The notes beneath the pieces were generated by a model. That model made no database searches. It was given only the letters and a program-made list of their open reading frames with translations, and had not been told where the DNA came from. The position numbers and the translations under genes are program-made. Below, piece after piece: positions 1 to 29,244 of a DNA stretch of 64,000 nucleotides (positions are counted from its first letter, which is position 1; each line of letters starts with the position of its first letter). This DNA is from Thermaerobacter sp. PB12/4term (lineage in GTDB: Bacteria; Bacillota; Sulfobacillia; Thermaerobacterales; Thermaerobacteraceae). The stretch is from NCBI RefSeq assembly GCF_003403315.2, contig NZ_CP048407.1:372001-436000 (forward strand), in the 5' to 3' direction.

Positions 1-1168
1 GAGCAACAGGACCGGCGACAACCCGAGTGCGTCAAGAGCGGTCACGGAGCTTGGTGACGTGGAGGGCGCGATCCAGTGGGAGCGACGGTATGACCAGGAC
101 CGGCAAAGCGGAGCACGGCGGTTCTTGCTGGGGGAGGTACTGGGATGGAGCCGCGGCCGCCGTATTCGCCCCTGGTGCAGGAAGGATTCAGCTGTGTACG
201 CAGGCACCCTATGCCGCGGCGATGGACTGGCTGGGGGGGTGAACATGCGGGGCCGTCCGGCTGGGCGCCATGCCGCCGTGGGCGGACGTGCAGGCGGACG
301 GGGCCCGGGCGGACCACGAGACAGAGGCGCAGCGGGAGGCGGGGTTGGAGCGGGGCGACGTCCCCGTGGTGAGTCGGCCGGCGGCGACTGTGGATCTGGA
401 GTTTGGCAAGCTGTGGGTCTGGGGTCGGCGGCGAGGGCCTGTTGATGCGGTCATCCGACGCACTCTGCTAAACTTCGACATCCTACCTGTGTTAGCCTTG
501 CTCCAGAAAACACCTTATGGCCCTGGTCGTTTATGACAACTGTTTCTCCGTCTAGACGAGGTGACTGTTGGACGCAGACGGAAGGGGTGATTGCCTACCC
601 AAAGCACCGCTCGCCCACAGGTTACGAACCGAGCCGGGGTCTAGAAGGCCGTGGGGAAACCGGCTCGGTGGCGTGCTGAGGTTGATACGAGCCCAGCACT
701 TAGTGAGTTTATTGCAAGAGCGACATAGCGACGTCACCATGCATAGCCCGTCCCAGAGCACAGAGGCAACCCGTTGTGGCAGCGGCCGACGCGGATGACC
801 TCTGGCATGCCCCTAGTGGCTACGGGCGCATTATACGGGTCCCATTCAGAGGCGGGTGGGTCCGCACGTCCCACCATTCCGCGGGGCGTGCGGTGGTCTA
901 CGCCAAAGACGAACCCGAGGCTCCGCCTCCCGGACCTTTATGCGGTTCGTTCCGGCGCTCGGTTTGCTCCTCCAGCAGGCATCATCCATTTTGGAGGAAA
1001 CGGGCCATGTGCTGGTTTGTCCTGCTAAGCAACGTGGCATCGTCATGTCCTGTAGGGATCGCAACCGTTAAGGTGCTGAATTTTCTTGGGGATCGCCGAT
1101 TATCAAGCCGCACTTCAGGCATGACTTAACCATTACGGCGTGTGTCCTACAGGAAGGGACGACAGACA
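1..1168. other. gene-free stretch, unrecognised
   Basis: All six frames are broken by stops or give low-complexity translations that I do not recognise. A frame open from the left edge to about position 445 could be the tail of something outside the window, but it has no family-like motif. No tRNA, terminal inverted repeat or transposase motif was seen. Base composition becomes less GC-rich toward the right, leading into the AT-rich genes that follow, so this may be the decayed flank of acquired DNA. Confidence 0.4.
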
Positions 1169-2412
1169 ATGATGAGACTCTTTCTAATTTTAATTCTGTT
1201 TTAGTCCTGGTTGTGGCCCCATTTGGATTCAGCCTTGCCCATACTTCTACGATTTCTTCGTGGAACTCCGCTAATGCCACATATGAGCCTGATCGGGGGC
1301 TGTATGAATTGTTTTCGTTTGAAAGCGGTTCTGATTACTACGTGAGATGCGACTCTAATTTTACTTACAGTTCATCCGATATCAACGCCATCCAGTCTTA
1401 CTATCGCAATAACAGCCACTATCCAGGAGCTGACTGCACTGATATGACGTCAGCATGGCTTGACCACTGTTCGTCCTTAACCACCTTGCCAGATGCGCAT
1501 TTTGATCAAGATGACGATGACGGTAATGCCTTATGGGAAGAGGCAGAGGTAACGTCAGAATCCCCGCTTTCGATCAAAGCTGGTCTTGAATACACATGGA
1601 GGGCACAGTTTTGTGATTTTTCCCTGTTCGGGAATATGACAGGGGAGATGCAACATACATTTCATGAAAGTTATTGGTCAAGTTTCTGGCGTGAGTATCA
1701 AACTCAATACTGGACGGGGTATGGAACAACAGACGGCGTAAATACTTATTATACCCATGGTGGACACACGGCTGACCTTATTGCTAACCATACCTTCGCT
1801 AGTTCGAATCGTCGTCAGAACGAGGCCTTCGCTCGAGACCCCGTACCGGTTTGGCGTGCCGACGAATCGGCAAGAGTCAAGGCGGTGGCAATTAAGGACA
1901 ATGAACTGAGCAAGGAAATCGAACTCAATGTTGCGGGGCCGAGAAATGCGGATGAACTTAAAGGATATGTACGAGAAAATGAAGAACTTATCAATTCATT
2001 GGGTGGCGCGCCTGGATCCCATCGTGTGATGATTACATTCAATAAACCGATGTCATTGACTGAATTCTCGGATTTTGTGTTATCTAATAATATATCACCA
2101 GTTTCCGTTGAATTGCGTTCAACTAATTCTGACGGGTTGCGTGGTACAATATACGTGAAAGGCGCTTTGAATCTAGTTAAAGCCGTTCATGATATAGCAC
2201 CAGACCACGTCGTGCATGGTGTTATTGCAGTGGACGCTGTACTTCGAGCGGACAAAGATCGCATTCTTGACCTCAGCCATGATAGTAATGTAGCACTGAT
2301 TGACGTTCATCCGTCCATTGCATACTTGGAATTTATTCGGCAGCGTGGCATTGCAGAGGGGCAACATGTTGACATAAATGTTAAATCCATTGCTTGGTGG
2401 CTTGGTTTATGA
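1169..2412 (+). CDS. secreted protein of unknown function, signal peptide out of frame by 1 nt
   Basis: An ATG at 1169 follows an AGGAAGGG ribosome site (1151-1158) and begins a hydrophobic leader, MMRLFLILILF, that hits TAG at 1202. The long frame (open to 2412) continues the leader perfectly as VLVVAPFGFSLA-H if one T is added to the TTTT run at 1199-1202. The two together make a textbook signal peptide and a mature protein of about 390 residues. In the frame as given, the first start codon is GTG 1213. The mature protein is rich in Asp, Ser, Tyr and Asn, has a few Cys, and has an alpha/beta-looking C-terminal half. I recognise no family. It is markedly AT-richer than neighbouring genes, which suggests horizontal transfer. 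The frame break could be a sequencing error, a recent mutation or slippage-based switching. Confidence 0.6.
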
Positions 2413-5626: not shown

Positions 5627-6517
5627 TCAATCCGTGGCGGGGTGCTGGACCTGGGAGGCGGCCTGCCGGCGGCTGCGCAGGGCGGCCTGCACCAGGAGCC
5701 CCAGGCAGACGGCCGCCACCAGGGCGTAGGCCAGCAGCCGGGTCAGGCCCGTGATGCCCGCGGCCCCGAAGAGGGTGCGCAGGTTGACCAGCAGGACCGC
5801 GGTCCCCACCATCACGCCCAGCACCTGGGCCGGCAGCCTGCGGGCCATCCAGGCCGCCAGGGGCGCTGCCACGGCACCCCCGGCCACCAGGGCGGCCACC
5901 TGCAGCCACGCCACCCCCTCCCAGCCCAGCGTGAGGGCAAAGCCCAGGGTGGCCGACACCGCCACGGCGAACTCGGCGATGGACACCGACCCCACCACCT
6001 GGTGGGGCGGCAGGTCACCGCGCACCATGAGCGCCGGGGTGGCGATGGGACCCCAGCCGCCGCCCCCCGTGGCGTCCAGGAGCCCCGCCACGAACCCCAG
6101 CGGCATCACGTACCGCAGCCGCAGCCGCGGCGGCCGCCGGTGGCGCGGCATGGCGGCCAGGGTAAACCGCACCAGGATGTACACGCCCAGGATCAGGAGG
6201 AACCCGGCCACCACCGGCCGCACCCGCTCCGCCGGCAACGAGGCCAGCAGCACCGCACCGAGGAAAGCCCCCACCGCCCCCGGCAACACCAGGCCGCGAA
6301 CGGTGGGCCGGTGCCAGTTGCCCATGCGCCAGTGGGCGAGACCCGACACGGCGGTGGTAATGGTCTCGGCCAGATGGACCGACGCCGAGGCGGCGGCGGG
6401 CGCCAGGCCGTAGAGCAAGAGCAGCGACGACGACGTCACCCCGTAGGCCATGCCCAGGGCCCCATCCACCAGCTGGGCGATGAGGCCCACCAGGGCAAAC
6501 ACCAGCAAGCGCTGCAA
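5627..6517 (-). CDS. TauE/SafE (DUF81) family membrane transporter
   Basis: An integral membrane protein of 296 residues with about eight hydrophobic segments. It has the repeated half-domain pattern of TauE/SafE exporters, including the N-terminal VGLIAQLVDGALGMAYGV and the mid-protein GFVAGLLDATGGGGWGPI, which is the repeated G-x-x-D-x-x-x-G-G signature. Members export sulfite, sulfoacetate or other organic anions; the substrate here cannot be told from sequence. The start is TTG 6517, seven bases after GGGGAGGTG on the minus strand; the open frame runs farther upstream but only as Arg/Pro-rich shadow. It is divergent from dnaE and convergent with the OsmC gene. Confidence 0.85.
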   Translation of the reverse strand: MQRLLVFALVGLIAQLVDGALGMAYGVTSSSLLLLYGLAPAAASASVHLAETITTAVSGLAHWRMGNWHRPTVRGLVLPGAVGAFLGAVLLASLPAERVRPVVAGFLLILGVYILVRFTLAAMPRHRRPPRLRLRYVMPLGFVAGLLDATGGGGWGPIATPALMVRGDLPPHQVVGSVSIAEFAVAVSATLGFALTLGWEGVAWLQVAALVAGGAVAAPLAAWMARRLPAQVLGVMVGTAVLLVNLRTLFGAAGITGLTRLLAYALVAAVCLGLLVQAALRSRRQAASQVQHPATD

Positions 6518-6931
6518 AGGGCTACACCTCCCCAGGCGACGGGCTCCAGGCGGTGGGACCGTCGGCCGCCCGTTGCCCGCGGGCGCCCGTCCCGGCCCGG
6601 GCGGGCGCCGGAGCCGGGCGGGGCGGGCGCGTGTCACGGACCACCCTATGGACCGCCCGCAGTGCCGGTGCGTGTCCGGAGCGCCCAACGGTCGCCCGGG
6701 CTGGCCGGAATGCCTGGGAATTCTGATTTGCTTCGTCATGGTGAAGCGGCGGCCGGAAGGGAGTGGGCTCTGCCTGCGGGCGGCTGCAGGCTCAAGGGTT
6801 GGGGCCGGGGGTGCGGCGGTGGTGGGCGGCGCGGGCGGGCCGGGAACCCCGGCCCGAGGCGAGGGGGCCGCCAGGAGCCTTCATGGCCCGTGGCGAAGGT
6901 GGACAGGAACCGGTCAAACGGAGGGGTGGCG
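6518..6931. other. divergent intergenic region, TauE / dnaE
   Basis: GC-rich spacer that must carry the promoters for the exporter (minus) and dnaE (plus). No -35/-10 pair with good spacing was found on either strand. The only well-defined signals are the two ribosome sites at its ends. Confidence 0.4.
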
Positions 6932-9900
6932 ATGGAACCCTTCGTCCACCTGCACGTCCACAGCGAATACAGCCTTCTCGATGGCGCCGCCCGGGTCGGC
7001 GAGCTGGCCGCGCGGGCGGCCGAGCTGGGCATGCCCGCCCTGGCGCTGACGGACCACGGCGTCATGTACGGCGCCATCGATTTCTACAAGGCGTGCAAGA
7101 AGCACGGGATCAAGCCCATCATCGGCTGCGAGCTGTACCTGGCCCGGCGCACCCGGCACGACCGGGAGCCCAAGCTGGACGACCAGCCCTACCACCTGCT
7201 GGCCCTGGCCCAGAACGAGACGGGCTACCGCAACCTGATCCGCATCGTCTCCCGCGCCTATGCCGAGGGTTTCTACTACAAGCCGCGGGCCGACCGGGAG
7301 CTGCTGGCCCAGTACAGCGAGGGCCTGATCGTCACCTCGGGCTGCATCGGCAGCGAGATCCCGCGGCTGCTCCTGGAGGGGCGGGAGGAGGAAGCGCTCC
7401 AGGCCGTGCGCTGGTACCTGGAGGTCTTCGGCGACCGCTTCTACTTCGAAATCCAGGACCACGGCCTCCCGGAGGAACGCAGGGCGTACGCCCGCATCCT
7501 GGAGCTGGCCCGGCGCTTCGACGTGCCGGTGGTGGCGACCAACGACGTCCACTACCTCAACCGGGACGACGCCGCCGCCCACGAGGTGCTGCTCTGCATC
7601 CAGACGGGCAAGACCCTGGACGACCCGAACCGCATGCGCTTTGAAGGGCCGGAGTTCTACCTCAAGACGCCGGAGGAGATGGCCGCCCTGTTCCGGGACG
7701 TGCCGGAGGCCCTGGCCAACACGGTCAAGCTGGCCGAGCGCTGCCAGCTGGAGTTCGAGTTCGGCCGGTTCCTCCTGCCCCACTACGAGGTGCCGGAGGG
7801 GCACGATGCGGCCTCCTACCTGCGTTACCTGTGCGAAAGCAAGCTGCCCGAGCGTTACCCCAACGCGGGCAGCGAGGTGCGGGACCGGCTGAACCACGAG
7901 CTTGAGGTCATCACCCGCATGGGCTACCCGGCCTACTTCCTGATCGTGTGGGATTTCGTCGACTACGCCCGCCGCAACGGCATCGCCGTGGGACCGGGCC
8001 GCGGCTCGGCGGCGGGCAGCCTGGTGGCCTACGTGCTGGGGATCACCGACATCGACCCCCTGCGCTACAACCTGCTCTTCGAGCGGTTCCTCAACCCCGA
8101 GCGGGTCACCATGCCCGACATCGACATCGACTTCGACGACCACCGGCGGGACGAGGTCATCGAGTACGTGGTGCGCAAGTACGGCCGGGACCGGGTGGCG
8201 CAGATCATCACCTTCGGCCGGATGCTGGCCCGGGCGGTGATCCGCGACGTGGGCCGGGTGATGGGCCTGCCCTACGGCGAGGTCGACAAGATCGCCAAGA
8301 TGGTCCCGGCCCAGCTGGGCATCACCCTGGACCAGGCCCTGGAGTCGAGCCCCGAGCTCAAGCAGGCCTATGACCAGCAGCCGGTGGTGCGCCAGCTGGT
8401 CGACATGGCCCGCAAGCTGGAGGGGATGCCCCGCCACGCTTCGGTCCACGCCGCCGGCGTGGTGATCGGCCGGGACCCGCTGATGGAACACGTGCCCCTG
8501 CAGCGGATGCAGGACGGTTCCACCGTCACCCAGTTCCCCATGACCACCCTGGAGGAGCTGGGCCTGCTCAAGATGGACTTCCTGGGCCTGCGCACCCTGC
8601 ACGTGATCCAGGAGACCGAGCAGATCATCCACCAGACGGGGGCGCGGGACGTGCTGGCGGAAGAACCCGGCCCGGCCGGTACGGGTGGCCCGGCCGGGCC
8701 GGGCGGGGCGGGTGGCGGCCCCGGCGGGAACGGTACCGCCGCCCGCCGGGCTTTCCGGGTGCGGGACATCCCGCTGGACGACGCGGCGACCTTTGAGGCC
8801 ATGAGCCGCGGCGACACGGCCGCCATGTTCCAGGTGGAGTCGTCGGGATTCACCCAGATGCTGCGATCCCTCAAGCCGTCCAGCATCGAGGACCTGATCG
8901 CCGCCGTAGCCCTTTTCCGCCCCGGGCCCCTGGGCAGCGGCATGGTGGACGACTTCATCAAGCGCAAGCACGGCCAGGTGCCGGTCGAATACCCGCACCC
9001 GTGGCTCGAGCCGATTCTCAAGGAGACCTACGGGACCATCGTCTACCAGGAGCAGGTCATGCAGATCGCCAGCGTGATGGCCGGCTTCACCCTGGGCGAG
9101 GCCGACCTGCTGCGCCGGGCCATGGGCAAGAAGAAGCCCGAGGAGATGCAGAAGCAGCGGGAGAAGTTCCTGGCCGGGGCCGCGGCCAAGGGCATCGACG
9201 CCGAGTTGGCAGGCCGCATCTTCGACCTGATGGAGTACTTCGCCGGGTACGGGTTCAACAAGAGCCACTCGGCCGCCTACGGCTACCTGGCCTACGTGAC
9301 CGCATACCTCAAGACCCACTACCCGGCGCCGTACATGGCGGCCACCCTGAGCAGCGTGATGAGCAACTCCGACCGGGTGGCGGAATATATCGCCGAGTGC
9401 CGCCGCCTGGGCATCCCGGTGCTGCCGCCCGACGTCAACCAGAGCGAGGCCCGCTTCACCGTGGTGCCCGACCCCGGTGCACCCGGCGGCCAGGCGATCC
9501 GCTTCGGCCTGGCGGCGGTGAAGAACGTGGGCTTCGGCGCCATCGAGTCCATCGTCGCCGCCCGGCAGAAGGGCGGGCCCTTCCGCTCCCTGGACGACTT
9601 CTGCCGCCGGGTCGACCTGCGCCAGGTCAACCGCCGCGCCCTGGAGAGCCTGATCAAGGCCGGGGCCTTCGACAGCCTGGGCCAGCCCCGCGCCCGGCTG
9701 GTGGCGGGCCTGGAAGAGGTGATGAACCGGGCCCAGCGCTGGCAGAAGGAACGGGAGACGGGCCAGGTGTCCCTGCTGGACCTGACGGCGGTCCTGGTGG
9801 GGGCGGGCGGCCGTGGCGGCGGCGGTGGAACCGGCTCCGGCGGCGCCGCCGCCGGCGACCTGGAGGTCACCGAGCTGCCGCCGGTGGACGAATGGCCGCC

Positions 9901-10525
9901 CAACCGCAAGCTGGCCATGGAGAAGGAGGTGCTGGGCCTTTACCTGTCGGGCCACCCCCTGGCCCACTACCAGCGGGAGCTGGCCCGGCGGGTGACCGCC
10001 ACCACCCGCCAGCTGGCGGACCGGGAAGACGGCGCCCGGGTCCAGGTGGGCGGCCTGGTGCAGGGGATACGCCGCATCACCACCCGGGGTGGCGATTTCA
10101 TGGCCTTCGTCCAGCTGGAAGACCTGGAGGGAACGGTGGAGGTGGTGGTCTTCCCGCGGACCTACGCCGACGCCGCCGAAGCCCTGCAGGAGGATGCGGT
10201 GATCATCGCCCGCGGCCGGGTCGACCGCCGGGAGGAAGAGGAACCGCCCAAGGTGGTGGCCGAGGAGATCTGGCCGCTGGTGACGGGCAAGCGGCTGGTG
10301 GTGGCCCTGCCGGACGGCGGGCCCGACGCCGTGGAGGGCGTGCTGGCCCGGGTGCGCGGCGCCTGCCAGCGCCATCCGGGCACCTCGCCGGTGGTGCTGG
10401 TCTTCCCGGGGCGGGACCACGCCCTGCAGGTCGACGCCCAGTACTGGGTGACGCCCCGGGCGGAGCTTCTGCAGGACCTGGCCCGGGTGGTGGGCGACAG
10501 CGGGTTCTACCTGGACGATCACTGA
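6932..10525 (+). CDS. dnaE: DNA polymerase III alpha subunit, DnaE
   Basis: Replicative polymerase catalytic subunit of 1197 residues. Domain order: PHP domain (about 1-210), palm/thumb/fingers, helix-hairpin-helix region, and an OB fold near the C terminus (VQVGGLVQGIRRI). The palm aspartates are in PDIDIDFDD (about 395-403), preceded by GPGRGSAAGSL. The PHP domain keeps the full metal-ligand set (HLHVH, TDHG, GCE, SGCIG, NDVHY), so it may be an active proofreading nuclease, as known for Thermus DnaE. Two Gly/Pro-rich insertions lie at about 575-610 and 954-976. The start ATG 6932 follows GGAGGGG. Firmicutes often also carry PolC; it is not in this window. Confidence 0.97.
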   Translation: MEPFVHLHVHSEYSLLDGAARVGELAARAAELGMPALALTDHGVMYGAIDFYKACKKHGIKPIIGCELYLARRTRHDREPKLDDQPYHLLALAQNETGYRNLIRIVSRAYAEGFYYKPRADRELLAQYSEGLIVTSGCIGSEIPRLLLEGREEEALQAVRWYLEVFGDRFYFEIQDHGLPEERRAYARILELARRFDVPVVATNDVHYLNRDDAAAHEVLLCIQTGKTLDDPNRMRFEGPEFYLKTPEEMAALFRDVPEALANTVKLAERCQLEFEFGRFLLPHYEVPEGHDAASYLRYLCESKLPERYPNAGSEVRDRLNHELEVITRMGYPAYFLIVWDFVDYARRNGIAVGPGRGSAAGSLVAYVLGITDIDPLRYNLLFERFLNPERVTMPDIDIDFDDHRRDEVIEYVVRKYGRDRVAQIITFGRMLARAVIRDVGRVMGLPYGEVDKIAKMVPAQLGITLDQALESSPELKQAYDQQPVVRQLVDMARKLEGMPRHASVHAAGVVIGRDPLMEHVPLQRMQDGSTVTQFPMTTLEELGLLKMDFLGLRTLHVIQETEQIIHQTGARDVLAEEPGPAGTGGPAGPGGAGGGPGGNGTAARRAFRVRDIPLDDAATFEAMSRGDTAAMFQVESSGFTQMLRSLKPSSIEDLIAAVALFRPGPLGSGMVDDFIKRKHGQVPVEYPHPWLEPILKETYGTIVYQEQVMQIASVMAGFTLGEADLLRRAMGKKKPEEMQKQREKFLAGAAAKGIDAELAGRIFDLMEYFAGYGFNKSHSAAYGYLAYVTAYLKTHYPAPYMAATLSSVMSNSDRVAEYIAECRRLGIPVLPPDVNQSEARFTVVPDPGAPGGQAIRFGLAAVKNVGFGAIESIVAARQKGGPFRSLDDFCRRVDLRQVNRRALESLIKAGAFDSLGQPRARLVAGLEEVMNRAQRWQKERETGQVSLLDLTAVLVGAGGRGGGGGTGSGGAAAGDLEVTELPPVDEWPPNRKLAMEKEVLGLYLSGHPLAHYQRELARRVTATTRQLADREDGARVQVGGLVQGIRRITTRGGDFMAFVQLEDLEGTVEVVVFPRTYADAAEALQEDAVIIARGRVDRREEEEPPKVVAEEIWPLVTGKRLVVALPDGGPDAVEGVLARVRGACQRHPGTSPVVLVFPGRDHALQVDAQYWVTPRAELLQDLARVVGDSGFYLDDH

Positions 10526-10724
10526 CCGCCCGGCGACAAGGCGCCGCTGCGGTCCGCCGTTCAAGGCATGGGGCACGGTCCTGCCCCTTCGCGGCGGCCA
10601 CACCGGGTGGGGGGCCGGCCGGACCGGTGCCCCGGGGCGGTGCACGTCTCCGGAGACAAAGGGGGCCCGGCAGCGGGATCCAAGGAGCATGGGGCGAGGG
10701 AGGAATCGGGGAGGAGGGGTCGGA

Positions 10725-11243
10725 TTGGCCGAAAGGGCGCCGAAGGTCTCCGGGCCGGTCCGCCTGCGGGTGGACCACCGGGCCGAGGTGATCCGCCGCC
10801 TGGAGCGGCGGGGGGTCACCCTGCGGGACATCGCGGAGATCGTCCTGGCCATTCAGGAGAAGTACGTGCCGGGCATCACCCTGGAGCAGTGCCTGGCCAG
10901 CGTGGAAGCGGTGATCGCCAAGCGGGAGGTCCAGCACGCCCTGCTGACGGGCATCGCCCTGGACGAGGCGGCGGAGCAGGGGCTGCTGGAGGAGCCGCTG
11001 CTTTCCATCCTGCGCACCGACGAGCCGCTCTACGGTGTGGACGAGGTCCTGGCCCTGGCCATCACCAACGTGTACGGGTCCATCGGCCTGACCAACTTCG
11101 GCTACCTGGACAAGGTGAAGCTGGGGGTCATCGAGCGGTTGAACAACGAGAAGAGCCAGGGGCGGGTGCAGACGTTCCTGGACGACCTGGTGGCCGGCGT
11201 GGCGGCGGCTGCCGCGGCGCGGATCGCCCACAACGAGCCCTGA
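10725..11243 (+). CDS. pgpA: phosphatidylglycerophosphatase A family (YutG-like)
   Basis: A 172-residue protein closely matching the Bacillus YutG/PgpA family from memory of its conserved blocks: RGVTLRDIAEIVLAIQEKY, CLASVEAVIAKREVQHA, TDEPLYGVDEVLALAITN and the YGSIGLTNFGYLDK block. Family members dephosphorylate phosphatidylglycerophosphate to phosphatidylglycerol, although this soluble-looking Firmicutes branch is less well characterised. TTG 10725 is chosen because GGAGGAGGGG (10710-10719) precedes it at normal distance. The upstream in-frame ATG 10689 sits one base from its GGAG and would add a Gly/Arg-rich leader. It lies 199 bp downstream of dnaE. Confidence 0.85.
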   Translation: MAERAPKVSGPVRLRVDHRAEVIRRLERRGVTLRDIAEIVLAIQEKYVPGITLEQCLASVEAVIAKREVQHALLTGIALDEAAEQGLLEEPLLSILRTDEPLYGVDEVLALAITNVYGSIGLTNFGYLDKVKLGVIERLNNEKSQGRVQTFLDDLVAGVAAAAAARIAHNEP

Positions 11244-11247
11244 CGAA

Positions 11248-11278
11248 GCTGCGGCCGGGACGCGGCTCCGGCCGCAGC
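11248..11278 (+). terminator. hairpin after pgpA
   Basis: Perfect 11-bp stem (11248-11258 with 11268-11278) and 9-nt loop starting five bases after the pgpA stop. There is no T-tract, so termination efficiency is uncertain. Confidence 0.55.
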
Positions 11279-12017
11279 GGCCGGGGTGAGGCTCCGGCCA
11301 GAACGGCCGGGGCGGCGCGGCCCCCGGGCCGGGCGGCCGGAAGGAACCCGGGTCCGGCCCGCAGGAGGGAACCCGGGCCGGGCGGGGAAATGGGCACCAG
11401 CCGCCCTTGCGGAATCCGCCGGGAGCCGGGCGCCGGGGGCCGGCCGCTGGCGGCTGGGGCCGGGGGTCCGGGGGCCGCAGGCCGGAGGCCCGGAAGAGGG
11501 AACCGGCTCCTTGAAGACGGCGGTGGAGGCTTGTGACCCTCCCGGGCGGCCGGCGGGGCGCATGGCCCCCCTGGGCGGCCGGTAAGGGGGGGTGCCGGCA
11601 GCGCCGGCCCGCCGGGCGAAGCAAACGCTGTTCCCGGCGGTGGGTTTGGCATGGTGGCCGTCGCCCCCAGCGACGAGCCCCGTCGCCGGCCCGGCGGGGT
11701 CCGGGAACGCAGCACCAGCCGGCCGCCGCCGGCGGCGGGCGCAACGGTCGCCGGAACGGGGACGGCGGGAGGGGCGCGCGGTGGAACGCGAGGGGCAACA
11801 ACTCGGGGACGGCCACGGGACATGCCCCGGCGAGCGGGTTAGGGGCGCGCGGCACGGGGAGCATGGGGTGGAATACTCCCCGGACGGGCCGGTTCGGCCC
11901 CGCGGGCACGGCGGGGCCGAACCGCCCGGGGAGCACCGGGTGCCGTTCCGGCCCGAGCCGCCCCTCGAACCTTCCGGTACACTAGGACCTTCCGGTGCGG
12001 CGGGGGCCGGGGCGCCG
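11279..12017. other. GC-rich intergenic region before the pan cluster
   Basis: About 740 bp with no convincing gene. The long frames here are Arg/Gly/Pro-rich shadows and none has a family-like motif. I checked for conserved RNA signatures (RNase P, SRP RNA, tmRNA, FMN and cobalamin riboswitch cores) and found none. TACACT at 11978-11983 could be a -10 element for the next gene, without a clear -35. Confidence 0.4.
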
Positions 12018-12422
12018 GTGGGGGAACGAGGGGAACCCCCGGCCATCCTGCTGGCCGGTCCGGGGCGGGCCGGTTCGAGCCTGGCCCTGGCCTGGCACCG
12101 GGCGGGCTGGCCGGTGGCCTGGGTGACCGGCCGCCGGGACGAACCGGCCCGCCGGCTGGCGGCGCAGGTGGGCGCCCGGGCCATCGGCTGGCAGCAACTG
12201 CTGGGGGAAGGGCTCCCCGGTCCCTGGCCGCCCGTGGTGGTCCTGGCCGTGGCCGACCGGGCGGTGGCGGAGGTGGCCGCCCGGCTGGCGGGCCGGCTGG
12301 GGGCCGTGCCGAAGGCTCTTCGCCCCCGCTACGCCCTGCACCTGAGCGGCGCCCTGGGGCTGGAGCCCCTGGCGCCCCTGGCCCGGCTGGGGCTGGCCAC
12401 CGAGGTGTTCCATCCCCTGTTG

Positions 12423-12468
12423 CCCCTGCCAGGTGGTCCCGCCCTGCGGCGGGACCACCTGGCAGGGG
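12423..12468. repeat. perfect 21-bp inverted repeat, 4-nt loop, inside coding sequence
   Basis: Arms 12423-12443 and 12448-12468 are exact reverse complements separated by CTGC. The right arm ends in the G run where the DUF2520 frame breaks. Confidence 0.9.
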
Positions 12469-12490
12469 GTACGCCACGGTGGTGTACGAC

Positions 12491-12532
12491 CCGGGCCAGA
12501 ACCGGGCCCCGGTGGGCCCGGTTCTGGCCCGG
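12491..12532. repeat. perfect 19-bp inverted repeat, 4-nt loop, inside coding sequence
   Basis: Arms 12491-12509 and 12514-12532 are exact reverse complements separated by CGGT. It begins 22 nt after the 12423-12468 hairpin and has an unrelated arm sequence. Confidence 0.9.
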
Positions 12533-13134
12533 AGGCTGGGCGCCACGCCGGTCCTCTGGCCCGGCGCCACGGCCCGGCAGCTGGCCCTGTACCACGCCGC
12601 CGCCACCCTGGCGGCCAATGGGGTGACTGCCCTGCTCTGGGCCGCCCGGGAACTGCTCCGCCTGTCGGGGTACCCCGGCATGGCGATGGCCGCCCGGGTT
12701 GCCGCCGGCCAGGACCCCGGCCGCGGCGCGGAGCCCGGTTCCACCACCGCCGCCGGTTCCTCCTGGGGTCCCCTGGAGGTCCTGGCGCGGGCGGCGCTGG
12801 AGGCGGCGGCGGAGAGGGGGCCGCTGGCCGCCTTGACGGGCCCCCTCGCCCGGGGAGATGCCGCCACGGTGCGGCGCCACCTGGAGGCGCTGGCGGGCGG
12901 GGCCGGCGCAGGCGAAGGGCTGGGCGCCTTCGATCCCGGGCCCGCGGGTCGTTACCGGCTGGCGGCCACGCTGGTTCTGGCCGCCGCCTCGGCCCGCCCC
13001 GGGGACCCGCCTGCCGGCCTTGAAGACATTGCCCGCCTGCTGGGGGCGGGCGGGGAGATGGCCGGCCGGTGAACGGTCCCGGCCGGAACCCGGTCCGCAA
13101 TCATCCCGAGGGCCATCCCGTGGGGGGAAGCATC

Positions 13135-14103
13135 ATGGCGTCGCGGGTTACTGTGCGCACCGTCCTCGAGTACAAGGAACAGGGCCGGCCGGTGGTCATG
13201 GTCACGGCCTACGACTACCCCTTCGCCCGGCTGGCCGACGCCGCCGGCGTGGACATGATCCTGGTGGGCGATTCCCTGGGCAACGTGGTGCTGGGCTACC
13301 CGGCCACCGTGTTCGTCACCCTGGACGAGATGGTGCACCACACCCGGGCGGCGCGCCGGGGGGTGGAACGAGCCTTGCTAGTGGCCGACATGCCCTTCTT
13401 GACCTTCCACCTCTCCGTAGATGACGCGCTGCGGGCAGCGGGGCGCCTGGTGCAGGAAGGGGGTGCCGAGGCCGTGAAGCTGGAGGGGGCCGGCCGCGTG
13501 CTGGAAGTGGTCCGACGCCTGACCGACGCGGGCATCCCCGTGGTGGGGCACCTGGGCCTGCTGCCCCAGCGGGTGCATGCCCTGGGCGGCTACCGGGTCC
13601 AGGGCCGGGACGAGGCCGAGGCCCGGCGGCTTCTCGACGATGCCGTCGCCCTCGAGCAGGCCGGGGCCTTCGCCCTGGTGCTGGAGATGGTGCCCCGGGA
13701 ACTGGCCGCGGCCATCAGCCGCCGGTTGCGGATACCCACCATCGGCATCGGGGCCGGGCCGGACTGCGACGGCCAGGTGCTGGTGCTCCACGATCTGCTG
13801 GGCCTGACCCAGGGCCGCGTCCCCCGCTTCGCCCGGCGGTACGCCGAGCTGGGGCAGATCGCCCTGGAGGCCCTGCAGCGTTACGCCGCCGACGTGCGCG
13901 CTCGCGCCTTCCCCACGGACGAGCACAGCTACCACATGGCGGCGGGGGAGGCCGGGTCCCGGGCCGGCGATGCGGCCACCGGCGCCGGCGATCCTGGGGG
14001 TTCCCGGTCACCCGCCCCGTCCGGCCCGGGCGAGGAGGCGCCCCGGGGCGGCCGCCAGGCCAGGGATGCCTCGTACGGCGACGCGCCCTACGGGGACCGG
14101 TAG
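13135..14103 (+). CDS. panB: 3-methyl-2-oxobutanoate hydroxymethyltransferase
   Basis: First committed enzyme of pantothenate synthesis; it transfers a hydroxymethyl group from methylene-tetrahydrofolate to ketoisovalerate to give ketopantoate. Magnesium ligands D46 (VGDSLGN), D85 (ADMPF) and E117 (KLEGA), and the catalytic E184 (LEMVP), are all in place. ATG 13135 follows GGGGGAAG and matches the family N terminus. An in-frame GTG at 13069 would overlap the upstream stop but adds an unrelated leader. After the normal end (DEHSYHM) there is a disordered Gly/Ala/Pro-rich tail of about 50 residues, unusual for PanB. It lies upstream of panC in one transcription unit. Confidence 0.96.
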
Positions 14104-14221
14104 TGGTGCACCCGGATCCCGTGCCCACAACGCGACCGGTGGGCCGCCAGGCTCCACCCTGCGGCGTCCGGCAGCGGCGCACCTGGATCGCACCCGGCAG
14201 CCACCGGGAGGAGGGACCCCC

Positions 14222-15106
14222 ATGGAACTGGTGCAGGACATCGCCACGCTGCGGCAGCACATCGCCCGCTGGCGCCGGGAGGACCCCGGGGGCCGGGTGG
14301 GCTTCGTCCCCACCATGGGCTACCTCCACGACGGGCACCTCTCCCTGATCCGCCGGGCCCGGGCGGAGTGCCGCCGGGTGGTGGTGAGCGTGTTCGTCAA
14401 CCCGCTGCAGTTCGGCCCCCACGAGGACTTCGCCCGCTACCCCCGCGACCTGGGGCGGGACCGGGAGCTGGCCTCCCAGGCCGGAGCCGACCTGCTGTTC
14501 CACCCGGCGGTGGAGGCCATGTACCCCCGGGGCGAGCCGGGGGTCTACGTCGATGTCGGGGACCTGGCCCGCCGCTGGGAAGGGGCCCGGCGGCCGGGTC
14601 ACTTCCGCGGCGTGGTCACCGTGGTGACCAAGCTCTTCCACCTGGTCCAGCCCGACCGCGCCTACTTCGGGCAGAAGGACGCCCAGCAGGCCATCATCAT
14701 CCGGCGCATGGTGGCGGACCTGGACTTTCCCCTGGACGTGGTGGTCTGCCCCACGGTGCGGGAGCCCGACGGCCTGGCCATGAGTTCCCGGAACGTCTAT
14801 CTGGATGCCGAGCAGCGCCGGGCGGCCCCGGTGCTGTACCGGTCGCTCGAGGCAGCCCGCCGCCTGCTGGAAACCGGCGAGCGACGCCGCGACCGGGTGG
14901 TGGCGGCCATGGAGGCCGTCCTGGCCGCCGAGCCCCTGGCCGAACCCGAGTACGCGGACGCCGTCGCCGCGGAGACCCTGGAGCCCGCCGATCCGGTGGA
15001 GGGCGAGGTGCTGCTGCTGGTGGCCGCCCGCCTGGGAGCCACCCGGCTGATCGACAACTTCTGGCTGGTGGTCGGCCCGGACGGCGTCCGGGACCGCTGG
15101 GCCTAG
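14222..15106 (+). CDS. panC: pantothenate synthetase (pantoate–beta-alanine ligase)
   Basis: ATP-dependent condensation of pantoate and beta-alanine, via a pantoyl adenylate, to give pantothenate in the cytoplasm. The 294 residues show PTMGYLHDGHLSLI (the HIGH-type motif, near residue 35), SVFVNPLQFGP, FGQKDAQQ and the KMSKS-like REPDGLAMSSRN (about 181-191). ATG 14222 follows GGAGGAGGG. No panD or panE gene is in the window; beta-alanine supply must come from elsewhere, and ketopantoate reduction may be done by the upstream DUF2520 protein. Confidence 0.97.
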   Translation: MELVQDIATLRQHIARWRREDPGGRVGFVPTMGYLHDGHLSLIRRARAECRRVVVSVFVNPLQFGPHEDFARYPRDLGRDRELASQAGADLLFHPAVEAMYPRGEPGVYVDVGDLARRWEGARRPGHFRGVVTVVTKLFHLVQPDRAYFGQKDAQQAIIIRRMVADLDFPLDVVVCPTVREPDGLAMSSRNVYLDAEQRRAAPVLYRSLEAARRLLETGERRRDRVVAAMEAVLAAEPLAEPEYADAVAAETLEPADPVEGEVLLLVAARLGATRLIDNFWLVVGPDGVRDRWA

Positions 15107-15470
15107 AGCACCGCCGCCGCCCGTGCATACACTGCAGTGAGACGCCGCCGGCCCATGGGGCCCGGGTGCCGGGCCCCCGGGAGCAGGACGCTACGGGCCC
15201 GTGCCGCCCCCGTGCCGGGCCCCGGGGCGGCCCGGCCCGCCGGTGGCCGGCCCGCGGTGCAGAACCCCCCGCGCCGGGACGCAAGACGGGGGACCGGTGG
15301 CGCGGGAGCACGGGTTCCGGCTCCGTCCGTCCCCAGGTGCCCCGGGACGAACTCCCTGGGATTTCCACCTCTGCTGGCCGGTTCTTCCCCCCACGACGAG
15401 CCCCGCTTACATAACGGCCCCGGGCGACCCCGGGCGGTCCGGGACGCCCAGGATCTGGATTGTCCGGCCC

Positions 15471-15499
15471 GCATTCGCCGCCACCCGGGCCCATACATC
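15471..15499 (+). promoter_or_regulatory. candidate sporulation sigma-E type promoter for yhbH-spoVR-prkA
   Basis: GCATTCG (15471-15477) and CATACATC (15492-15499) are separated by 14 nt. They resemble sigma-E -35 and CATACA-type -10 elements, and lie about 118 bp before yhbH. A second CATACACT, matching the -10 consensus more closely, is at 15126-15133 but lacks a good -35. Bacillus yhbH, spoVR and prkA are known sigma-E targets, which makes this the expected class. The rest of the 15107-15616 intergenic region shows only short GC-rich inverted repeats and no gene. Confidence 0.35.
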
Positions 15500-15616
15500 C
15501 GGAAAAACCCCCACCCTCGCCGCTGGCCTGGACCGGCGCGGCGGCAGCCCGCCGGTCGTCCACCGAACGGCCGCTGCCCGGAAGGGGCCCGTACATACCG
15601 CGAGGGGGTGAGGTCC

Positions 15617-16813
15617 ATGCCGCGGGGCGTGATCGACTGGTCCCTGCACCGCAAGGGGCCCGTCGACCAGGCGCGGCACCAGGAAAAGGTCCGCGCCGCC
15701 ATCCGAGAGAACCTGGCCGATCTGATCACCGACGACTCCTTGTTGACCACCGACGGCCGCCGGGTGGTCAAGGTGCCCGTGCGCTCCCTGCGGGAGTACC
15801 GGTTCCGCTTCAGCACGATCAACAACCCCCAGGTGGGGCAGGGGCGGGGCGGCAGCCGCAAGGGGGACGTGCTGGCCCGCCAGCCCGGCCAGCCGGGCGG
15901 GCAGGGCGACCCCCACGGGGCGGGCCAGGGGCCGGGAACCGACTACTACGAGACGGAAGTCACCCTGGACGAGCTGGAGTCCATCTTCTTCGAGGAGCTG
16001 GAGCTGCCCGACCTCAAGCCGCGCCGGCAGCCGGCCCTGGACGCCCGCCGGCCGCGGTTCACCGAGGTGACCCGGGCCGGGCCCCTCAGCCGGGCCGACC
16101 TGCGCCGTGCCCTGAAGGAAAACCTCAAGCGCCACGCCCGCCAGGGCGAGGCGCGGCTCGGCCCCTTCCGCCGCGAGGACCTGCGCTACCGCAGCTGGCG
16201 GGACGACCCGCGGCCCCATGCCCGGGCCGTGGTGGTCGCCATGCGGGACGTCTCGGGCAGCATGGGCGAGTTCAAGAAGTGGATGTCCCGGACCTTCTTC
16301 TTCTGGATGAACCGGTTCCTCCAGAGCCGCTACGCCGATGTGGAGCGGGTGTTCATCACCCACCACACCGAGGCCCAGGAGGTCGACGAGGAGCGCTTCT
16401 TCCACCTGGGCGAAAGCGGCGGCACCCGGGTCTCGTCGGCATACCGCCTGGCCCTGGATATCGTCACCGGGCGCTACCCGCCCGACGGCTGGAACATCTA
16501 CGCCATCCACTTCTCCGACGGCGACAACTGGGGGGAGAGCGACAACGGGGTGTGCGTCCAGCTGGCGCAGCAGCTGGCCGACCTGTCGAACCTCTTCGCC
16601 TACGGGGAGATCAACGAGAGCGGTTACCGCTCCCCGCTGATGACGGCCTTCGAGCGGGTGCGCCACCCCCGGTTCGTCCGGGTGAAGATGAGCCGGCGGG
16701 AGGACATCTACCCCGCCTTGAAGGCCATCTTTCGCGCCCAGCCCGGCGGGGCCGGCCTGGGCGCGGGCCCGGGAGCGGGCGCGGGGCCCGGCGGGGGAGG
16801 TGAGGGACCATGA
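15617..16813 (+). CDS. yhbH: sporulation protein YhbH (UPF0229/YeaH family)
   Basis: A 398-residue protein of the YhbH/YeaH family. The N-terminal half is basic and contains a Gly/Gln-rich linker (about 75-110). The C-terminal half is a von Willebrand A-like domain with a metal site DVSGSM (D211-M216) and the conserved FHLGESGGTRVSSAY and HFSDGDNWGE segments. ATG 15617 follows GGGTGAGGT. Members are co-expressed with PrkA and SpoVR, and their biochemical role is unsettled. Its stop overlaps the spoVR start as ATGA, implying translational coupling. Confidence 0.93.
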   Translation: MPRGVIDWSLHRKGPVDQARHQEKVRAAIRENLADLITDDSLLTTDGRRVVKVPVRSLREYRFRFSTINNPQVGQGRGGSRKGDVLARQPGQPGGQGDPHGAGQGPGTDYYETEVTLDELESIFFEELELPDLKPRRQPALDARRPRFTEVTRAGPLSRADLRRALKENLKRHARQGEARLGPFRREDLRYRSWRDDPRPHARAVVVAMRDVSGSMGEFKKWMSRTFFFWMNRFLQSRYADVERVFITHHTEAQEVDEERFFHLGESGGTRVSSAYRLALDIVTGRYPPDGWNIYAIHFSDGDNWGESDNGVCVQLAQQLADLSNLFAYGEINESGYRSPLMTAFERVRHPRFVRVKMSRREDIYPALKAIFRAQPGGAGLGAGPGAGAGPGGGGEGP

Positions 16814-18072
16814 GCAGTCCCGGCGTCACCGCCTCGGGCCCCGGGGCCGAGGGGCTCCTGCCCCACCTGGAGCGGATCTGGGCCGTGGCCCGGGACCTGG
16901 GGTTCGACCCCCTGCCCACCCACTTCGAGGTGGTGCCGGCCCCCGTGGTCTACGAGGTGGCGGCCTACGGCCTGCCCGGCCGCTTCACCCACTGGAGCCA
17001 CGGCAAGGCCTACCACTTGCTGAAGACCCGGCACGACTACGGTCTGCACCGCATCTACGAGCTGGTGATCAACGCCGACCCGTGCCAGGCGTTCCTCCTG
17101 GAGAGCAACAGCCTGTTCGAAAACCTGTTTGTGGCGGCCCACGTGGCCGGCCATGCCGACTTCTTCCACCACAACGTGTTCTTCCGCCGGGCGGGCCGCG
17201 AGATGGCGGGCCTGGCGGCCGTTCACGCCGAGCGGGTGCGCCGCTACGAGTACGATCACGGGGTCGAGGCGGTGGAGCGGGTGCTGGACGCCGCCCTGGC
17301 CCTGGAGCCCCACACTGACCCCTGGCTGGCGGAGGAGCAGCAGGTCCCGCCCCTCCGCCCCGGCGAGCCCTTTGAGGACGTGCTGCTGTTCATCCAGCAC
17401 CACGCGCCCCACCTGGAGGACTGGGAGCGGGACCTGCTCGCTATGGTGCGGGCCGAGCGGCTCTACTTCTGGCCCCAGATCCGGACCAAGGTGATGAACG
17501 AGGGCTGGGCCTGCATCGCCCACAGCCGCATCCTGCGCCGGCTGGACCTGCCCGACGGGGACTACACCGAGTTCGCCCGGCTCCACGCGGCCATCCAGGC
17601 CTCGTCACCCTTCGCCTTCAACCCCTACGCCGTGGGCTACCACACCTGGGAGCGGATCCTGGCCACCCGGGGCTGGGACGAGGCCCGGTTCATCCTGGAA
17701 ACCGAGGACGACGTGGCCTTCCTGCGCAACCACCTGGACCGCCAGGTGGCCGAAGCCTGCGACCTTTACATCTACGCCCGCCAGGGCGACCAGTGGGTGA
17801 TCGTGGAGGACGACTGGGCCCGGGTGCGGGACCTCCTGGTCTTGAGCCGCGTCCGCGGCGGGTTCCCGCTGATCGCCGTGGTGGACGGCGACTACCGGGG
17901 CCGGGGTGAGCTGCTGCTGCGGCACATCTTCGACGGCCGCGAGCTGGACCTGGATGAGGCCCGGCAGGCGCTGGCCCTGGTGGAGCGCCTGTGGCGGCGC
18001 CCCGTCCACCTGGAGACCCGGGCCGGGGGGCACGACGTGGTCCTGTCGGTGCCCGCGGGAGACAAGGGGTGA
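16810..18072 (+). CDS. spoVR: stage V sporulation protein R
   Basis: A 420-residue member of the SpoVR/YcgB family, linked to spore cortex formation in Bacillus. Conserved blocks are YEVAAYGLPGRFTHWSHGK, NSLFENLFVAAHVAGHADFF, TKVMNEGWACIAHSRI and NPYAVGYHTWERI. These are rich in His and acidic residues, suggesting a metal-binding role. ATG 16810 lies in a 4-nt ATGA overlap with yhbH, and prkA starts 8 bp downstream. Keeping the three genes in one operon is common in proteobacteria; in Bacillus subtilis spoVR is elsewhere. Confidence 0.95.
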   Translation: MSSPGVTASGPGAEGLLPHLERIWAVARDLGFDPLPTHFEVVPAPVVYEVAAYGLPGRFTHWSHGKAYHLLKTRHDYGLHRIYELVINADPCQAFLLESNSLFENLFVAAHVAGHADFFHHNVFFRRAGREMAGLAAVHAERVRRYEYDHGVEAVERVLDAALALEPHTDPWLAEEQQVPPLRPGEPFEDVLLFIQHHAPHLEDWERDLLAMVRAERLYFWPQIRTKVMNEGWACIAHSRILRRLDLPDGDYTEFARLHAAIQASSPFAFNPYAVGYHTWERILATRGWDEARFILETEDDVAFLRNHLDRQVAEACDLYIYARQGDQWVIVEDDWARVRDLLVLSRVRGGFPLIAVVDGDYRGRGELLLRHIFDGRELDLDEARQALALVERLWRRPVHLETRAGGHDVVLSVPAGDKG

Positions 18073-18080
18073 GCGCGACC

Positions 18081-20000
18081 ATGGGGACGAACCTGCACGA
18101 GCTCCTCCGCCGCCACCGGGAAGAGGAGGCCCGCCTGCGCTGGGAGGGGACCTTTGCCGAGTACCTGGAGATCGTGCGCCGGCGGCCGGAGGTCGCCCGG
18201 CTCAGCCACGCCCGGCTCTTCGACATGCTGCGGGCGGCGGGGGTGACGGAGGCGGAAGAGGGCGGCGACGGCGAGCGGCGGCCGCGGCAGATCCACTTCT
18301 TCGACGGCCAGCTCTTCGGCCTGGAGGAACCGCTCAACCAGCTCTACGACTACCTGGAGTCCGCGGCCCGGCGGCTGGAGGTGCGCAAGCGCATCCTGCT
18401 CCTCATGGGGCCCGTGGGCGGCGGCAAATCGACCATCGTCACCCTGCTCAAGCGCGGGCTGGAGCGCTATACCCGCACGGAAGAGGGGGCGGTCTACGCG
18501 CTCAAGGGTTGCCCCATGCACGAGGAGCCGCTGCACCTGATCCCCGAGTCCCTGCGGCCCCAGGTCAGCCAGGAACTGGGCGTGCACATCGAGGGCAGCC
18601 TGTGCCCCGTCTGCCGCTACCGGCTGGAGGAGGAGTACGGCGGGGACATCGCCCGCTTCCCGGTGGAGCGCATCGTCTTCTCCGAGGCGGGCCGGGTGGG
18701 AATCGGCACCTTCACCCCGTCCGACGAGAAGTCCCAGGACATCGCCGAGCTGGTGGGGTCCATCGACCTCAGCACGGTGGGCGAGTACGGCACCGAGTCC
18801 CATCCCCTGGCCTACCGGTTCGACGGCGAGCTCAACGTGGCCAACCGCGGGCTGATGGAATTCGTCGAGCTGCTCAAGGCCCAGACGGAGTTCCTCTATG
18901 CGCTTCTCACCCTCTCCCAGGAGCAGTCCATCAAGACCGGCCGGTTTGCCATGATCTACGCCGACGAGGTGGTGATCGGCCACACCAATGAGGCGGAATA
19001 CCAGGCCTTTGTCAAGAACGAGCGCAACGAGGCCCTGATCGACCGGATGATCCTGATCAAGGTGCCCTACAACCTGCGCCTGTCGGAGGAGGTGAAGATC
19101 TACCGCAAGCTCCTGGCGGAGAGCGACCTCCAGGGCGTGCACATCGCGCCCCACACCCTGGAGGTGGCGGCCATGTTCGCCATCCTGACGCGCCTGGAGC
19201 CGCCCAAGCACCCCAACCTGACCCTGATGAAGAAGCTCCGCCTGTACGACGGCCAGCCGGTGGAGGGATTCAGCCCGCGGGACGTGCGGGAGATGCGGGA
19301 GGCGGCTGAGCGGGAGGGCATGACCGGCGTTTCCCCCCGCTACGTGATCAACTGCCTGTCCAGCGCCGTGATCCGGGCGGAGAACCGCTGCCTGGGGCCC
19401 CTGGCCGCCCTGCGCGCCCTGCGGGACGGCCTCGACCACCACACCGGCCTGACCCGGGAGCAGCGGGAGCGCTACCTCAACCTGATCCACGAGACCCGGC
19501 GCGAGTACGACGAGATCGCCAAGAACGAGGTGAACCGGGCCTTCGTCTACTCCTTCGAAGAAACCGCCCGCAACCTGTTCAACAATTACCTCGACCACAT
19601 CGAAGCCTTCTGCAACAAGACGAAGCTGCGCGATCCCATCACCGAGGAAGAGCGGGATCCCGACGAGAAGCTGATGCGCTCCATCGAAGAGCAGATCGGG
19701 GTGCCCGAGAGCGCCAAGAAGGCCTTCCGGGAGGAGATCCTGCTGCGGCTGTCGGCCCTGGCCCGGCGCGGGCAGAAGTTCGACTACACCTCCCACGACC
19801 GGCTGCGGGAGGCCATCGAGAAGAAGCTGTTCAGCGACCTGCGCAACGTGGTGAAGATCACCACTTCGGCCGCCCACCCCGACGAGGAACAGCTCAAGCG
19901 GATCAACCAGGTGGTCCAGCGGCTGTGCGACCGCCAGGGCTACTGCCCGGCTTGCGCCAACGAGGTGGTTCGCTATGTCGGACAGCTGCTGGGCCGGTGA
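18081..20000 (+). CDS. prkA: PrkA serine protein kinase / AAA+ ATPase
   Basis: A 639-residue PrkA/YeaG-family protein. It has an N-terminal PrkA AAA domain with Walker A GPVGGGKST (residues 110-118) and a conserved zinc-ribbon-like CPMH...CPVCRYRL segment, plus a C-terminal kinase-like domain ending in YCPACANEVVRYVG. In Bacillus it promotes sporulation; both kinase and Lon-like protease activity have been proposed for the family. ATG 18081 fits the family N terminus. It is the third gene of a tight operon, so it is likely expressed with yhbH and spoVR in the mother cell. Confidence 0.95.
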   Translation: MGTNLHELLRRHREEEARLRWEGTFAEYLEIVRRRPEVARLSHARLFDMLRAAGVTEAEEGGDGERRPRQIHFFDGQLFGLEEPLNQLYDYLESAARRLEVRKRILLLMGPVGGGKSTIVTLLKRGLERYTRTEEGAVYALKGCPMHEEPLHLIPESLRPQVSQELGVHIEGSLCPVCRYRLEEEYGGDIARFPVERIVFSEAGRVGIGTFTPSDEKSQDIAELVGSIDLSTVGEYGTESHPLAYRFDGELNVANRGLMEFVELLKAQTEFLYALLTLSQEQSIKTGRFAMIYADEVVIGHTNEAEYQAFVKNERNEALIDRMILIKVPYNLRLSEEVKIYRKLLAESDLQGVHIAPHTLEVAAMFAILTRLEPPKHPNLTLMKKLRLYDGQPVEGFSPRDVREMREAAEREGMTGVSPRYVINCLSSAVIRAENRCLGPLAALRALRDGLDHHTGLTREQRERYLNLIHETRREYDEIAKNEVNRAFVYSFEETARNLFNNYLDHIEAFCNKTKLRDPITEEERDPDEKLMRSIEEQIGVPESAKKAFREEILLRLSALARRGQKFDYTSHDRLREAIEKKLFSDLRNVVKITTSAAHPDEEQLKRINQVVQRLCDRQGYCPACANEVVRYVGQLLGR

Positions 20001-23312: not shown

Positions 23313-23452
23313 GGACCGCGGCCCCTGGGCCCGCCGCCCGCCGCGGGTTCCCCGGTGACCGGCCGGAAGGGCCTGGCCCTGCCCCCGCGGTGTCCGCCGG
23401 GCTCCAGGTGGACGGCCCCGGCGGGCTGCCGGCGGGCGCGGGCCCCCGGGGC

Positions 23453-28475: not shown

Positions 28476-29018
28476 TCACGGCCGGTGGCCGGGCCTGCCG
28501 TCCAGCGGCGCGGCCGCCGGGAGACTGAGCAAGGGAGCGACCCGGTGGTGCTCCAGCCTGTCGCCGCGGTAAGCGGCGATGAACACGAAGGGCGGCTCGG
28601 GGGCCAGCATCCGCGGTAGGAACAGGGGGATGTTGCCCACCACCCGCGGGTCCTCCAGCACCTGCTCCACCGGCCACCAGGCCAGGCGCCCTTCCTCCGA
28701 GGCCAGCAGCTCGCCCGCGGCGGTATGGGCGAGGAAGGTGTAGATCATCTGGGGCGGCCAGGCCCCGTCCAGCTCGTGGAAACACAGGATCGCCCGCAGG
28801 GAAGGATCCTGGAGGACGAGCCCCGTTTCCTCGGCAAACTCCCGGACGATACCCTGGATGGGGTCCTCCCCGGCCTCCAGCTTGCCGCCCGGCGCGTTCC
28901 AGCGCCCCGCGTTGGGCGGCTTGCGGCGCTCCAGCAGGAGCACGCGGCCCTGGCGGACCAGAAAGCCCAGGGTGAAGACCTCGAAGACGTGGCGCGGTTT
29001 CGGTGCCGTCGTGGTCAT
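28476..29018 (-). CDS. Nudix hydrolase, MutT/8-oxo-dGTPase-like
   Basis: A 180-residue Nudix protein. The complete Nudix box is present, G45 through L67 (G-x5-E-x7-REFAEETGL), preceded by LLLERRKPPNAGRWNAPGG, the form seen in the YtkD/MutT-like 8-oxo-dGTP and related nucleoside-triphosphate hydrolases. It probably removes oxidised or non-canonical nucleotides in the cytoplasm, but Nudix substrates cannot be assigned from the box alone. ATG 29018 lacks a good ribosome site. It lies downstream of the CatE-like gene on the same strand with a 226-bp gap. Confidence 0.85.
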   Translation of the reverse strand: MTTTAPKPRHVFEVFTLGFLVRQGRVLLLERRKPPNAGRWNAPGGKLEAGEDPIQGIVREFAEETGLVLQDPSLRAILCFHELDGAWPPQMIYTFLAHTAAGELLASEEGRLAWWPVEQVLEDPRVVGNIPLFLPRMLAPEPPFVFIAAYRGDRLEHHRVAPLLSLPAAAPLDGRPGHRP

Positions 29019-29244
29019 GGGTACTCTGTTCGGCCCGCCTCCGTCGAATCCTGTTGCTTCCGACGCCCGCGCTGGGCCGCTGTGCTGGCGGGCCGGGTCG
29101 GGTGGTGGCGATTTCCCGGGAAATGTGCCGGTCCGGGTCGCGCGGGCGCGTGCGGGTGCGGCCAGGGCAGGGCGCCGGGCGACCCGGCCGGCCGGGGGAA
29201 AGGTGGAACCGGTTTACGGCGTTCGGGGCCGTAGCCTGGGCCCA

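Follow-up and report, generated by a model that had tools for sequence, protein, structure and literature searches.

The gene at 1169-2412 of the window (the whole stretch of 64,000 nucleotides analysed here) has a frame break within the signal peptide of an exported-family protein. Its relatives carry their leaders in frame, and the gene lies at a variable, low-GC locus adjoining a dead transposase. Judging from the sequence of a single assembly, a real and recent inactivating change in an accessory gene of an exported family is the probable cause. Before the break, ATG 1169 would have been the start of an exported two-module protein. Through a recent change of one base at about 1196-1204, inside the hydrophobic core of the leader, the ATG frame would then have been cut short by a stop after 11 codons. 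The present product may be an 11-residue peptide and no exported protein, with at best a slight amount of leaderless protein made by re-initiation at GTG 1213. We infer that the change is in the DNA of the cell, that it is recent and that export was lost. Among the three causes offered by the initial annotation, inactivating mutation is thus the best supported, sequencing error is a lesser possibility, and slippage-based switching found no positive evidence.

The features of the gene and its surroundings are listed in Table 1. Direct reading confirmed the start described in the initial annotation, where ATG 1169 with its ribosome site yields MMRLFLILILF and then terminates, the stop being TAG at 1202-1204. 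The long frame from 1201 reads LVLVVAPFGFSLAHTST, which comprises the remaining hydrophobic core followed by an S-L-A site of the type expected from the usual cleavage rule. In the ATG frame the hydrophobic stretch extends to 1201, and the long frame turns hydrophobic after 1198. Since the long frame is mostly polar immediately upstream (S N F N S at 1183-1197), the break was placed at about 1196-1204. All the elements of a Sec signal peptide (start, basic n-region, core and cleavage-like site) are present, distributed over two frames instead of one. The long frame is open over 446 codons, and its earliest ATG, GTG or TTG is GTG 1213, 47 codons in. A usual start of its own farther upstream was ruled out, because none of these three codons occurs in the 47 codons preceding GTG 1213. 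The protein had been given as 390 residues; 399 codons were counted here from GTG 1213.

Table 1 Features of the frame-broken gene and its neighbours (positions in the window)
Feature	Position	Strand	Remark
Degenerate UPF0236 (PF06782) transposase-like remnant	1..439	+	multicopy in the genus
Ribosome-binding-site-like AGGAAGGG	1151..1158	+	10 bases upstream of ATG 1169; read from the sequence
Mini-ORF MMRLFLILILF and stop (start of the leader, basic residue, early hydrophobic core)	1169..1204	+	
Region confining the frame break	1196..1204	+	includes TTTT 1199-1202
Leader remainder LVLVVAPFGFSLA in the long frame	1201..1239	+	
Long ORF: end of the leader plus mature portion of the unnamed exported-family protein	1213..2412	+	399 codons from GTG
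N-module, acidic stretch FDQDDDDGNALWEEAEV	1240..1812	+	from alignments
C-module, VMITFNKPMS... to terminal AWWLGL	1888..2409	+	also occurs alone
Small ORF with one clear hydrophobic segment	2497..2790	+	ATG 2497; searched as 2509-2787

The split arrangement stands alone in the genus DNA scanned. Both strands of 1.124 Mb of DNA (284 kb of the PB12/4term genome and 280 kb each from three genus genomes) were scanned for starts with a ribosome-site-like motif and an ORF of 8-21 codons. An early K or R together with a hydrophobic end was found at six of the 963 short-ORF starts, and a split leader (mini-ORF, then the rest of the leader in a neighbouring frame open for at least 200 codons) at one, which is the ATG 1169 site, under thresholds chosen after the case was known.

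In the relatives, the leader is in one frame with the protein. An in-frame hydrophobic leader, defined as a 12-residue segment near a start codon with a mean Kyte-Doolittle value of at least 2.2, is carried by all 10 relatives whose frame spans a module from its start (G011, G070, G122, G265, G352, G143, the C- and N-module genes of G050, the C-module gene of G017, and G028), where the distinction between covering a module and starting inside it is a judgement that was a close call for L031. Short frames that start within a module and have no leader were excluded from this count, namely L031 (G223), L080 (N-module, G017), L099 (G087) and L030/L032 (the second copy in G028, with an internal stop), as were L101 (G299), which matched weakly (8.8e-4) and had no leader, and L100 (G136). 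Leaderless homologues that begin at the position of GTG 1213, which the initial annotation had named as counter-evidence, were looked for and not seen among the module-covering relatives. For example, the 401-residue protein of G011 (L002/L084), from a Thermincola ferriacetica MAG, has both modules like the window protein, but carries its own leader in one frame (MSKRTLSILILATSFFLLTLPALA...). Therefore, the leader is part of the window protein, with the break in the frame located at about 1196-1204. The leader pieces in two frames and the in-frame leaders of the relatives together support the proposal that a break in the frame has cut the signal peptide off from its protein, as in a frameshift pseudogene whose homologues have the full frame.

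Two other ways of reading the break were considered. In one, the cell would decode it into some exported or cytosolic form, either through a ribosomal frameshift within the mini-ORF or by re-initiating at GTG 1213. The stop and the GTG are indeed near each other (1204 and 1213), but this reading is very unlikely on several counts. Programmed -1 frameshifting takes place at a slippery heptamer (X XXY YYZ) in the zero frame before the stop, and no classical heptamer was seen by eye among the mini-ORF codons. Nor was a ribosome site seen by eye for GTG 1213; re-initiation there would drop the hydrophobic core, and the 10 leader-bearing relatives keep the leader in one frame. In the other reading, the T run would be a slippage switch turning export on and off, as at a contingency locus. 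Homopolymers in the leaders of exported proteins are known switch sites in other bacteria, and the break is in or next to such a run within a leader. However, known contingency tracts are far longer than four T, and this run is neither a long simple repeat nor a slippage-prone homopolymer; 13 T runs of at least four bases occur in 1061-2800, TTTT among them. In the literature on leader frameshifts and phase variation, the matches listed concern mostly pathogens, and those listed for Thermaerobacter genomes include genome notes. A switch at this run is highly improbable.

The frame-broken gene belongs to a sparsely distributed family. Of the 397 other genomes sampled from the phylum, two contained relatives of the window protein, namely G011 (E 2.7e-18, 29% identity across window residues 12-293 and 26% in the full alignment) and G070 (E 5.4e-4). 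The break looks recent because the window ORF aligns with the G011 protein along its entire length. A three-sequence profile of these proteins gave matches in 10 of 398 genomes and a C-module profile in 11 of 398, the own genome counted in both cases. The three other genus genomes searched (G008, G055 and G158) gave no match with the window protein or with either profile. The two modules are fused in the window gene, G011 and G070, and in G050 they are in adjacent genes (L079); in L034 (G028) their order looks reversed, though the match of the C-part is weak. The N-module consensus over the three sequences is DxDDDxGxGLxDExEV, and the C-module occurs by itself in proteins of 188-237 residues in other genomes. 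At L078 (29-1908), two small membrane-protein ORFs that resemble each other, both of 138 codons, come after a C-module protein. Broken family members were also observed in other genomes (L030/L032, L031, L033 compared with L034, L080 and L099). In G070, one paralogue of the family consists of two overlapping ORFs (L033, 677-1827), and G028 has a single one of 382 residues (L034, 1372-2520).

Searches of databases and of further sequences yielded few additional clues. The initial annotation had assigned the protein to no family, which was borne out by profile and phmmer searches, with no family in Pfam, NCBIfam or PADLOC and no PDB chain matched by sequence. The family matches of the relatives were all under the curated cut-offs, the best being an EF-hand in L081 (0.00017). 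Tblastn of the plasmid set gave no match. The genome-contig search returned 35 pattern stretches and no relative for the window protein, and 12 stretches with one relative, the G011 protein itself, when the G011 protein was used; the viral-contig search returned four stretches and no relative. Similarly, in the class of G011 only G011 itself matched among 10 genomes. A structure model built from a two-row alignment had a mean pLDDT of 32.3 and a pTM of 0.23 and was set aside. That these proteins form an undescribed exported two-module family of Bacillota (fused, split or perhaps reversed, often with a small membrane-protein gene nearby) that is repeatedly inactivated is a speculative and rather unlikely proposal. 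If true, it would fit a mobile cassette for surface interaction or antagonism, whose costly exported part is lost through frame breaks.

The gene occupies a variable, low-GC spot before hemE. The GC content is 0.42-0.49 over the gene and 0.71-0.75 downstream. Homology to the other genus genomes ends upstream at -84 (G055), -115 (G008) and -186 (G158) and restarts at 2760, 2760 and 3039, respectively, and the non-homologous gap in these relatives measures about 3.9 kb, 5.7 kb and 13.9 kb. No intact copy of the family was found at this spot in the three genomes. The transposase remnant has 79% DNA identity to copies in all three of them, in G008 over 109-439 only. The ORF at 59-442 matches PF06782 at 0.0013 with 18 bits, below the curated cut-off of 24.3, and an intact copy (L087) matches the same family at 1.7e-50. 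The small ORF downstream of the gene reaches with bases 2760-2790 into the genus-conserved flank. It matched no family above the cut-off (PsaL at 0.14 in Pfam, none in NCBIfam or PADLOC), and in a ten-sequence comparison with small membrane proteins near family genes it scored E of at least 0.28 (0.06 from the side of G122). As these small membrane proteins are not detectably homologous, a conserved operon is not claimed. Over 900-2900, the promoter scan gave three hits, all on the minus strand, against a shuffle mean of 2.8, and the terminator scan gave none against 2.3 in shuffles. In G158, the segment before hemE (L025, about 6500-20000) is a variable one of about 14 kb, whose ORFs by eye resemble a transposase, a cluster for sugar ABC transport, AbrB/PIN-like pairs and an S-layer-homology-like protein. 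A tRNA-SeC (anticodon tca; L015, 6301-6395) lies about 13.7 kb upstream of the window.

Traces of the family were found at the same place in two other genomes of the genus. In G055 the remnant is a stretch of 28 N-module-like residues (phmmer 1.3e-8 against the G028 module; profile E 0.0013), which with the profile scores above 500 of 500 shuffles. In G008 there is a weaker, 107-residue N-module-like piece (2.5e-5; profile E 3.8, with one of 500 shuffles outscoring it), downstream of an ORF judged by eye to be a transposase. Neither remnant gave a score against the window's own N-module (E about 0.6). The locus appears to be an older one because of these remnants, and it probably held the family earlier and lost it. 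The remnants, that of G055 more strongly than that of G008, led to the rejection of the alternative that the low-GC segment had been newly inserted in PB12/4term alone.

A further explanation is that an error in sequencing or assembly at the short T run created the apparent break and that the cell has an intact exported protein, which would agree with the intact remainder of the ORF, as expected for a live gene. The PB12/4term genome (2.82 Mb) is a single contig, and the integrity of its frames was screened over 284 kb with 301 query ORFs (not unique), taken from three relatives and intact in a third genome. In this screen, 116 conserved stretches, 150,827 bases in total, kept a single frame across more than 85% of their query, and one place was flagged, 23386, which falls within residues 1-31 of an ORF of G055. 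In a control, 54 of 70 planted single-base deletions were detected and nothing else was flagged; this control left the odds between mutation and error unchanged. At the flagged place (23331-23390), a C run has five C against six in G055, near the start of a 433-codon ORF of G055, and G008 and G158 do not align. For another 21 query ORFs the match extended across 85% or less of the query; 18 of them had no piece in another frame and three did. At 28858-29545, a 202-codon ORF of G158 has its residues 1-71 and 107-202 matched in different frames, separated by a gap.

A second clear break was found in the window, in a Rossmann-like/DUF2520 gene (12042-13072) that precedes an ORF judged by eye to be panB-like (13069-14103). 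Its parts are in different frames at 12438-12478, where a GC-rich hairpin and a G run coincide with the break, and all three relatives have the gene in one frame. Since this break fell outside the frame screen, the screen is incomplete. A first screen for own-specific indels had given 12 candidates, and six places were re-inspected (12465, 20461 and four from a frame screen): 12438-12478 was a clear break, 23386 was the C-run difference, and the rest were read as intergenic regions or gene starts. In favour of an error are the DUF2520 break and the C run near 23386. However, the screen found no clear break and only the one flagged place in 150,827 conserved coding bases, at a sensitivity of 54 of 70. 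From the screen and the DUF2520 break together, breaks in the assembly are rare, at roughly one to a few per 150 kb, and therefore the prior for any one 1.2-kb gene to contain an error by chance would be a few per cent at most. An error at the T run is thus possible, though a doubtful explanation, and a real loss at a decaying locus is likelier than a chance error.

For annotation, a gene called from GTG 1213 would make the product look leaderless and cytosolic, although its relatives are exported. Furthermore, a two-module family that is broken in several genomes may merit a curated family entry. As a frame-broken accessory gene, the window gene is largely an ordinary case. It resembles frameshift pseudogenes of accessory exported proteins at variable loci in its one-base 5' break, intact remainder, low-GC segment, adjacent dead transposase and remnants in related genomes, and differs from them in being known from the sequence of one assembly. 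With phase-variable surface genes controlled by simple-sequence contingency tracts it shares a homopolymer within the leader of an exported protein, but here the tract has only four bases and was seen in a single assembly.
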